Source of the DNA: Bacteroidales bacterium
Lineage (GTDB): Bacteria > Bacteroidota > Bacteroidia > Bacteroidales > VadinHA17
DNA: 38,453 nt
Assembly: GCA_025358645.1 (NCBI GenBank)
Contig: JANYIW010000254.1
Location: forward strand, 1-38,453
Reading direction: 5' to 3'
Shown in pieces: positions 668-15,838 of this stretch. Below the pieces are notes generated by a model. The model was not told the origin of the DNA, did no database searches, and worked only from the letters and a program-made list of their open reading frames with translations. Made by a program: the position numbers and the translations under genes. Every line of letters begins with the position of its first letter. Position 1 is the stretch's first letter.

Positions 668-1495
668 TCAGGTCTGCTTCCTGTTTATCCAGTTCAATAT
701 ATATTTAAATACTTCGTCCCTGAATTGTTCATTATGTAACTCATGATAAGCTCCATCCCAGATTTTAAAGTCAACCATGTTTGTTTTTCCTGCAAATTCC
801 CGGCTACCCTCAGGGGAAGTAATCATATCATCACTCCCATGTATAATAAGTGTTGGAACTTTTAGTTCGGAAGCATGAGTAAGAGAATACTTTGCAGCGT
901 TCATTGCACCTGCAAAAAGGCTGACTGAAATTTTTCCATGAACAAGAGGATCTTTTTTGTAATTATCTACAATAGTCTTATCGTGAGATATATGATTTAC
1001 ATTTAATCCCGAAGACTGGATAAGTCCCGGAAGCACGTATTTCATTACAGAAGCCATCATTATTTTGATCTTCGGAGTTTCAAAAGAGAGTCGAAGCCAT
1101 GGAGAGGTGACTATTGCTCCTTCCACCTTTGGCTTTCTCCGTAAGAGATAGTCGAGGACTATGCCACCGCCCAGACTATGACCATAGATATAAACAGGGC
1201 ATCCCGGGAAAGTCTGATTGCAGCTTTTTAACAGGATATCAATCATCTCTCCAACAAGAGCGTAACTTTTTATATTACCTCGCCTTCCTTGTGATCGGCC
1301 ATGTCCGGGAAGATCTACGCCGAGAAAACCAATGCCCTCTTTTTTAAATAATTCTGCCCAGTATAAATATCGTTGAACATGTTCTCCAAGACCATGAACC
1401 AGGATTATTACTGCTTTTGTATTTTCGCCCGGGCTCTGAACCATCCCATTTAATATCTGTCCGTTGCTCAGCTTAATATTGAACTCCATACTCAA
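668..1495 (-). CDS. alpha/beta hydrolase (monoacylglycerol lipase-like, serine aminopeptidase S33 type)
   Basis: VHGLGEHVQRY, GVDLPGHGRSQG, nucleophile elbow YGHSLGG, late HGSDD and AYHELHNE motifs. Confidence 0.88.
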   Translation of the reverse strand: MSMEFNIKLSNGQILNGMVQSPGENTKAVIILVHGLGEHVQRYLYWAELFKKEGIGFLGVDLPGHGRSQGRRGNIKSYALVGEMIDILLKSCNQTFPGCPVYIYGHSLGGGIVLDYLLRRKPKVEGAIVTSPWLRLSFETPKIKIMMASVMKYVLPGLIQSSGLNVNHISHDKTIVDNYKKDPLVHGKISVSLFAGAMNAAKYSLTHASELKVPTLIIHGSDDMITSPEGSREFAGKTNMVDFKIWDGAYHELHNEQFRDEVFKYILNWINRKQT

Positions 1496-1551: not shown

Positions 1552-1591
1552 TTTAATTTATCCTTAATCAAACCTTAATCCCTTCTTAATC
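1552..1591 (+). promoter_or_regulatory. Array of CTTAATC direct repeats at 11-bp period (candidate OmpR/PhoB-family response-regulator site)
   Basis: CTTAATC at 1563-1569, 1574-1580 and 1585-1591, plus degenerate TTTAATT at 1552-1558, all in 11-bp register. A TAAATTTG (-7-like) box follows at 1612-1619. Confidence 0.55.
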
Positions 1592-1821
1592 CCACCTCTT
1601 TTATTAATATTTAAATTTGTGTCAGATCAGTTTTTAATTAATAATAATTGTTTATGTCATCAAACCTAATTAGTAAAAAGTAACGAATATCTTAATATTT
1701 TAATTTATATAACATTTAGAACAGGATAAGCATTTCGATTATATTTAACTGAATATCAATATTATACAAATGCTCTTTATTTATAAACCAGATAGAATAT
1801 TACGATTTTAAGATATTAAGA

Positions 1822-1853
1822 TTTGCATATCTTTATTTATCTGTATAAATTTG
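1822..1853 (+). promoter_or_regulatory. Bacteroidetes-type promoter of the ECF sigma gene
   Basis: TTTG (1822-1825), 20 nt, TAAATTTG (1846-1853), matching the TTTG / TAnnTTTG consensus. Located 25 nt upstream of the ATG at 1879. Confidence 0.65.
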
Positions 1854-1878
1854 TTTCAACAATAAAAACCGAAGCGTT

Positions 1879-2385
1879 ATGACACAGTATGACTTTAATA
1901 ATAGCCTGATAGAAATGAAGACAAATCTTCAAAGATTTGCGATGAGCCTCACCTCCGATCGTGACAGCGCTCTGGATCTGGTACAGGATACTTATCTTAA
2001 AGCTATAACTTATAAAGATAAATTCGTCGATTACACCAATCTCAAAGCCTGGGTATTTACAATAATGAAAAATACTTTCATTAATAACTACAGGCGTAAT
2101 GTTAAGGAGAATACAATTATTGATGGGACACAGGATCTCTATTATATAAATCAGCCACACGACAAAGGCTTCATTTCGCCCGAGTCGAAATATGCAGAAG
2201 GTGAAATCGAAAATGCAATAAATTCCTTAAGTAATGAATTCAGGATCCCATTCAGGATGCATTTAGAAGGCTTTAAATATAAGGAGATTGCTGATGAGCT
2301 TGGACTAAAAATAGGAACAGTCAAAAGCAGAATCTTTTTTACACGTCAGAAATTAATGCTGATGTTAAAGGATTATAGCAGATAG
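1879..2385 (+). CDS. RNA polymerase sigma factor, sigma-70/ECF family
   Basis: Region 2 (ALDLVQDTYLKAITYKDKF...LKAWVFTIMKNTFINNYRR) and region 4 (FRIPFRMHLEGFKYKEIADELGLKIGTVKSRIFFTRQKL). Confidence 0.93.
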   Translation: MTQYDFNNSLIEMKTNLQRFAMSLTSDRDSALDLVQDTYLKAITYKDKFVDYTNLKAWVFTIMKNTFINNYRRNVKENTIIDGTQDLYYINQPHDKGFISPESKYAEGEIENAINSLSNEFRIPFRMHLEGFKYKEIADELGLKIGTVKSRIFFTRQKLMLMLKDYSR

Positions 2386-14443: not shown

Positions 14444-15838
14444 TTATTTGTTTTTTACTACTTGTGCAGTCATTTCTCCTTCTAAAACAAGTATGTTTCC
14501 TACAAATGCCTGACCAAACATCGTGGCTATCCCGCGTCGCATTACATCAGCAAATTCCATTTTAAGTATGACAGTATCTCCAGGAACTACTTTGTGTTTA
14601 AACTTAAGTTTGTCGATTTTAAGAAAATAAGTTGAATACTTTTCTGGTTCTTCAACCGAACTGAGTACAAGCAATCCCCCGGTTTGAGCCAGGGCTTCAA
14701 CCAGAAGTACTCCTGGCATTATTGGTTCATCTGGGAAATGACCCTGAAAGAATGATTCATTAAATGTAACATTCTTGATCCCTACAATTGAGGATTCATC
14801 AAGAGCAATTATTTTATCAACCATTAAAAAAGGGAATCTGTGAGGCAGTCTTTTTTTAATGTCTTCAATCGTAAAAACCGGAGGTTGCGTAGCGTCATAA
14901 ACAGGAATATCACGTTTTGAGAGCGCTTTTTTCATCTCCTGCCGGATGATCTTAGCGAGCCTTGTATTGGCATAATGCCCCGGACGGGTAGCAACAATTT
15001 TACCTTTAATCGGGTGACCAACCAGGGCAATATCTCCCATAATATCAAGTAGTTTATGCCGGGCCGGTTCATTCGGGTATCGTAATTCGGTATTATTAAG
15101 TATACCTGCTTTATGTGTATTTATCCCCGGGCGGTTAAAAAGTTTAGCGATCCGGTCAATTTCAGACTGTTTAACTTCCTTTTCAAGGATTACAATCGCG
15201 TTATCCAGATCACCTCCTTTTATAAGTCCCTTATTATAGAGGGACTCCAGTTCATGAAAAAACACAAATGTGCGGCTTTTGCAAATCTTCTCTTCAAAGT
15301 CATCAATTGAATCAAGGATAGAATACTGATTACCCAGGATTTTGGAGTTATAATCAATAAGAACATTCACGCTGAAATGATCGTCGGGATAAACAATAAG
15401 ATCCACACCGTGTTCTTCGTCTGAGAAGGTAATCTTCTGTTTTATAACGAAGTAATTTCTATCTTCTTTCTGATCGATAATACCTGCTTCCTTAATTGCT
15501 TCAACAAACATCCAGGCAGAGCCACCCATTATCGGGGCCTCGGGTCCGTTTAACTCTATGAGGGCATTATCGACCCTCAGTCCATGAAATGCGGCCAGAA
15601 CATGTTCAATAGTTGCCACGGAGGCATTGTTTTGAACAAGAGTCGTTCCTCTGGAAGTATCTGTAACGTGTTCAGCAAGAGCATCAATTAAAGGTTTTCC
15701 CGGAAGGTCCACTCTGCAGAATTTGTATCCATGATTTACCGGAGCTGGTTTAAATGTAATTGTTACACAATTCCCTGTATGCAGCCCATATCCGGTAAGG
15801 CTTATCTCTTTTGCGAGAGTCCTTTGTTTTTCACTCAT
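14444..15838 (-). CDS. lpxC/fabZ: Bifunctional UDP-3-O-acyl-GlcNAc deacetylase / 3-hydroxyacyl-ACP dehydratase (LpxC-FabZ fusion)
   Basis: LpxC half: SLTGYGLHTG, TIEHVLAAFHGL, LLDIMGDIALVGHPIKG. FabZ half: LPHRFPFLMVDKI, FFQGHFPDEPIMPGVLLVEALAQTGG. Confidence 0.96.
   Translation of the reverse strand: MSEKQRTLAKEISLTGYGLHTGNCVTITFKPAPVNHGYKFCRVDLPGKPLIDALAEHVTDTSRGTTLVQNNASVATIEHVLAAFHGLRVDNALIELNGPEAPIMGGSAWMFVEAIKEAGIIDQKEDRNYFVIKQKITFSDEEHGVDLIVYPDDHFSVNVLIDYNSKILGNQYSILDSIDDFEEKICKSRTFVFFHELESLYNKGLIKGGDLDNAIVILEKEVKQSEIDRIAKLFNRPGINTHKAGILNNTELRYPNEPARHKLLDIMGDIALVGHPIKGKIVATRPGHYANTRLAKIIRQEMKKALSKRDIPVYDATQPPVFTIEDIKKRLPHRFPFLMVDKIIALDESSIVGIKNVTFNESFFQGHFPDEPIMPGVLLVEALAQTGGLLVLSSVEEPEKYSTYFLKIDKLKFKHKVVPGDTVILKMEFADVMRRGIATMFGQAFVGNILVLEGEMTAQVVKNK

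Follow-up and report, generated by a model that had tools for sequence, protein, structure and literature searches.

The four phased half-sites that lie upstream of an ECF sigma factor gene in the window (the whole stretch of 38,453 nucleotides analyzed here, contig C190 in a genome of 4.06 Mb and 414 contigs, designated G000) are best read as the operator of an activator-dependent promoter, P1, at which one OmpR/PhoB-family response regulator, RR1, would switch on the sigma factor gene; we put the probability of this reading at about 0.78. The control of solitary ECF sigma genes is often not known, and here a promoter motif, a candidate regulator and part of a regulon are connected purely by sequence, in a genus that this analysis knows from metagenome assemblies only. 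It appears that a sensor system turns on a gene regulator of the second tier in these uncultured bacteria, a prediction for which a single purified protein and a single DNA fragment would make a sufficient test.

The array occupies a 383-nt intergenic region of 21% GC between a divergent alpha/beta hydrolase gene and the ECF sigma gene (Table 1). Its half-sites are direct, one helical turn (about 11 bp) apart and upstream of a promoter, as is expected of an OmpR/PhoB-family operator. The main sigma factor consensus of Bacteroides is TAnnTTTG with TTTG near −33 (PMC7366714), and at P1 the −7 box TAAATTTG is present while the −33 slot is filled by the end of the last half-site. The first-pass annotation, made from the letters of the window, had described three exact CTTAATC copies, a degenerate fourth copy in register, the −7 box, the missing −33 element and a second promoter (P2) nearer to the sigma gene, and all of these are confirmed in the sequence. 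The tandem half-site layout that it proposed also stands, whereas its unit of two or three half-sites gives way to one of four.

Table 1. Coordinates of the array, its promoters, the adjoining genes, the RR1 gene and a sister array; positions are those of the window unless a contig is named.
Feature	Position	Strand	Remarks
Alpha/beta hydrolase gene	668-1495	-	Divergent from sigma gene
Predicted RR1 operator	1552-1591	+	Four 7-bp half-sites TTTAATT, CTTAATC, CTTAATC, CTTAATC at 1552, 1563, 1574, 1585; period 11 bp; register kept in relatives
−33 slot of P1	1588-1591	+	AATC in place of TTTG; overlaps last half-site; 24 nt before −7 start
P1 −7 box	1612-1619	+	TAAATTTG; starts 21 bp past end of last half-site; distance identical in 27 sites
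Inferred leader	1626-1878	+	From P1 start near 1626 to sigma gene; about 250 nt; deduced from box position
P2	1822-1853	+	TTTG 1822-1825, 20 bp, TAAATTTG 1846-1853; kept before nearly all genus orthologues, with the array or with none
ECF sigma factor gene	1879-2385	+	Predicted target; 168 aa; Sigma70_r2 and r4_2
RR1, OmpR/PhoB-family response regulator	G000:C369:3887-4567	-	Outside window; receiver PF00072 and Trans_reg_C PF00486
Sister array, TTTAATC x4	G000:C26:1648-1687		L038, L080; period 11 bp; others at L044, L054, L057, L058, L064, L116

Orthologues of the sigma gene were collected from same-genus genomes for comparison of their upstream regions, and nine of these loci retain the array in register, together with its 11-bp phase and −7 box, a number that rose to 13 with a later pattern search. 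Conservation of the phase in close relatives had been set beforehand, in the first-pass annotation, as a test capable of refuting its reading, and the phase has held. The nine array-bearing orthologues form one clade in the sigma-factor tree (support 97/97), and the array was not found upstream of the remaining genus orthologues whose upstream sequence was compared. The pattern search fixed only the four TTAA cores, spaced 11 bp apart, and a TAnnTTTG placed 22 bp past the last core; allowing no mismatch, it gave matches in 16 of the 62 genus genomes and none with the reversed-pattern control. The resulting set of 27 genus sites (from which the exact matches G334:C115 and G335:C85, of other sequence, are omitted) has one geometry throughout, with four in-phase cores and TAnnTTTG at offset 60. 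At the position before the core, which the pattern leaves free, a C is found in 25/27, 19/27 and 24/27 sites for copies 2, 3 and 4, respectively, and the core is followed by T or C and then, in copies 2 to 4, mostly by C, a convergence on CTTAATC. Such occurrences elsewhere in the genomes are far above background, with zero or one match to the reversed-pattern controls, so that the second refuting test set in the first-pass annotation, a lack of other genomic occurrences above background, was also passed. A related pattern allowing up to two mismatches matched in 3 of 294 other genomes across the order. As a whole word, CTTAATC was not found in the literature collection searched, which is weak evidence of novelty. 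A four-copy YTTAAY array before a polysaccharide-export-like gene (G000:C259:12086-12125, L041) was left out of the regulon because a good TAnnTTTG is missing where the offset would place it, and the one-mismatch matches G006:C66, G025:C26 and G026:C118 were dropped as unlike CTTAATC arrays.

At several of these sites RR1 is the gene directly beside the array. RR1 has the receiver and winged-helix Trans_reg_C domains expected of the cognate regulator of an OmpR/PhoB-family operator, is linked to the arrays by adjacency as well as co-occurrence, and counts BasR among its solved relatives. In the window genome it is 78% identical to RR1 of G010 and divergent from a PAS-domain histidine kinase gene, and neither an array nor a superoxide dismutase (SOD) gene adjoins it there. 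The earlier statement that the window holds no response regulator is correct as to the OmpR family, because PF00486 is matched nine times in the genome, each time on another contig (0/9 on that of the window).

With presence called at an identity of at least 72%, RR1 was found among the first 40 genus genomes in 10 of the 11 ECF-array genomes and in 0 of 29 others. Over all 62 genomes, 13 have both RR1 and the array, 3 the array only, 2 RR1 only and 44 neither, which places RR1 in 13/16 array-bearing genomes vs. 2/46 others (Fisher 6e-9, a value that ignores kinship). The pairing has about three independent origins, namely the main clade, the G010/G346 cluster and G033, and the last-added 22 genomes taken alone give p = 0.055, again with kinship ignored. 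RR1 was not found in G017, G334 and G335, whose ECF gene is preceded by the array and whose completeness is 87, 89 and 94%; incompleteness of the assemblies would by itself produce three such misses in the 13 main-locus genomes with a probability of 0.11. RR1 with no exact array is found in G332 and G333. Internal-stop flags had marked the RR1 genes of these two genomes and of G025 as broken, a reading that was rejected as the loci show nearly full-length frames. In a lake metagenome genome outside the genus sample (L160), CTTAATC/TTTAATC arrays lie at 2080 (-), 5304 (+) and 7781 (+), around a 69%-identity relative of RR1 and another regulator. The sequence evidence speaks strongly for the earlier proposal of an OmpR/PhoB-family activator site in place of the −33 element, and RR1 can now be named as the candidate.

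It is important to consider whether another OmpR-family regulator binds the site, for example the sister regulator RR2 of the TTTAATC arrays, with RR1 co-occurring for other reasons. RR2 is related to RR1 (about 50% identity, in a separate clade) and has tandem arrays of similar form at its loci, an RR2-like gene is present in G017 and G335, where RR1 was not found, and the window genome has nine OmpR-family regulators to choose from. We nevertheless consider this unlikely, as RR2-like genes also occur in G008, G013 and G018, genomes without a CTTAATC/offset-60 array, the RR2 arrays start with T and have their −7 box closer by one helical turn (offset 49 vs. 60), and it is RR1, not RR2, that lies directly beside the offset-60 arrays. 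The RR2 loci consist of RR2, its kinase, a four-copy TTTAATC array and then a gene that, where scanned, has FG-GAP and UnbV domains. Offset-49 arrays are also seen near related regulators in Spirosoma (L165, L169-L173) and Chitinophaga (L202, L203, L205), with scores just above the reversed control, a hint that the box type may be widespread in the phylum; together with the RR2 arrays they support the word as a site of this regulator subfamily. The sister geometries, with the box at offset 60 or 49, provide a natural test of how an OmpR-family activator contacts the RNA polymerase of Bacteroidetes where the promoter has no −33 element.

Returning to RR1 as the candidate regulator, the array lies before ECF genes in two settings: upstream of the orthologue of the window's ECF gene in the 13 genomes, and before ECF paralogues in three further genomes, G010, G346 and G033 (two copies in G033, one a partial match), where it stands directly before the gene with a short leader. 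The order RR1, array, SOD gene (iron/manganese family) is found in G006, G031, G034, G026, G337 and G348, and one-mismatch forms of the array precede a SOD-family gene in G005 and at a second G006 locus; the SOD assignment is by Pfam in G010 and G006 and by similarity in the other genomes. In G010 the divergent kinase gene is followed by RR1, the array, the ECF gene, one further gene and the SOD gene, and in G346 by RR1, the array, the ECF gene and the SOD gene. Two similar genes of G348 (L264 1666-2235; L258), whose products start MKIxxKNM, each lie near an offset-60 array, and the one scanned encodes an AraC-type HTH protein; the array also precedes the genes of two similar unannotated proteins in G019 and, with one mismatch, in G031. 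The array downstream of RR1 in G025 was not counted as a SOD site as the next gene is unlike SOD. Since a superoxide dismutase gene is a co-target of the array, oxidative or redox stress is suggested as the signal.

Under the RR1 reading, the PAS-domain kinase, once active, would lead to phosphorylated RR1, which, by analogy with PmrA and PhoB, would bind as a pair of head-to-tail dimers to the four half-sites, which share one face of the helix. The start-proximal dimer would then fill the −33 position and bring the polymerase that carries the main sigma factor to the −7 box of P1; in PhoB, the transactivation loop faces sigma region 4 (PMC3973317). We infer that RR1 acts here by activation rather than repression, and that transcription would run from the predicted start through the leader to reach the ECF sigma gene, adding to the expression that P2 provides. 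The first-pass annotation had left room for a separate small RNA ahead of the sigma gene, an option for which no support was found: no terminator-like site was seen in 1400-1950, an Rfam scan returned no family above its threshold, and the arrays of G010, G033 and G346 have short leaders to their ECF genes. No anti-sigma gene was recognized adjoining the ECF sigma gene, whose neighbors are the hydrolase gene and a QueG-family gene, and for this reason the signal is probably passed on through how much of the sigma factor is made. A broader picture, in which RR1 and its kinase form a hub that has taken control of other regulators on repeated occasions, a redox-stress system acting mainly via second-tier sigma factors and regulators and using a rigid four-half-site code (box 21 bp after the last half-site) that can be told from the code of the sister system, is more speculative, and we hold it to be possible rather than probable.

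The array would work like the PmrA and SphR boxes and, as to its target, like the CseBC-SigE and PorXY-SigP cascades, to which we liken it without identifying it with any. The PmrA/BasR box of Klebsiella and Salmonella likewise consists of head-to-tail half-sites starting CTTAAT that are bound by the OmpR-family regulator PmrA (PMC3973317), but it has two half-sites and an enterobacterial sigma-70 promoter where the present array has four and a Bacteroidetes TAnnTTTG box, and the targets are unrelated. The cyanobacterial Pho box of SphR, another OmpR/PhoB-family regulator, is built of tandem 8-bp repeats CTTAACCT, three or more in number and separated by 3-bp linkers, and so has the same 11-bp period (PMC1906773). 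Its targets are phosphate genes, whereas ours are ECF sigma, SOD and AraC-type genes; the likeness concerns the box. A Pho-box reading prompted by this resemblance was dropped after the regulator and targets had been found, as no phosphate gene was recognized among the array targets seen (ECF sigma, SOD, AraC-type and unannotated genes). In CseBC-SigE of Streptomyces coelicolor, a two-component system controls transcription of an ECF gene without an anti-sigma factor (PMC6767563), and the window shows the same features in the predicted regulator site at the sigma promoter and the lack of an adjoining anti-sigma gene. The comparison concerns the cascade layout; sigE and cseBC share one operon, in another phylum, while RR1 usually lies elsewhere in the genome. 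PorX of Porphyromonas gingivalis is not known to be an OmpR-family protein. PorXY-SigP likewise comes from the Bacteroidota, its response regulator binding and activating the promoter of the ECF gene sigP, yet the reported PorX site CG(A/C)AAAAA-N5-T(T/A)TCTTTGC differs from the phased CTTAATC array, the sequence of the array alone being compared (PMC8265659). The type of cascade is already known, and the candidate regulator appears unusually well determined for a case of this kind, built from genome comparison.

The array is placed between two divergent genes, and P2 is a promoter common to the whole genus, so one may ask whether the regulator represses here, or acts on the hydrolase gene, with the sigma gene driven by P2 alone. 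This seems improbable, considerably more so than binding by another regulator, as the distance from array to TAnnTTTG is constant in the 27 sites and on the sigma or SOD side, the −33 element is replaced rather than overlapped, and in G010, G033 and G346 the short-leader array stands before the ECF gene only. Least of all can we credit a chance repeat, even in so AT-rich an intergenic region, as the in-phase YTTAAYY run at 11-bp period is four long vs. a longest run of two in 20,000 dinucleotide shuffles of that region (and of two in 300 shuffles of the whole window), and as the array is conserved in 13 genomes with reversed-pattern controls at zero and the order-wide matches as rare as given above.

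With activation from P1 by RR1 retained as the preferred reading, P2 has probably the longer history. Its region, consisting of TTAAGATTTG, ATATC and then a TAnnTTTG-like box, is recognizable before nearly all genus orthologues, and because it is common to orthologues with and without the array while the array at this locus is confined to one clade, P2 probably came first, with the array promoter added afterwards in that clade. A perfect inverted repeat, AAGATAT-N10-ATATCTT (1810-1816 and 1827-1833), surrounds the −33 TTTG of P2, and since this block is kept before nearly all genus orthologues, a second regulator may act there. Near the ECF orthologue of other families in the order there is a gene judged by eye to be MerR-like (L081, L082, L084, L085), and it is possibly the older regulator of P2. 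Elsewhere in the window, at 14444-15838 (-), an LpxC gene is fused to a FabA-like domain and adjoins LpxD and an LpxA-like gene.
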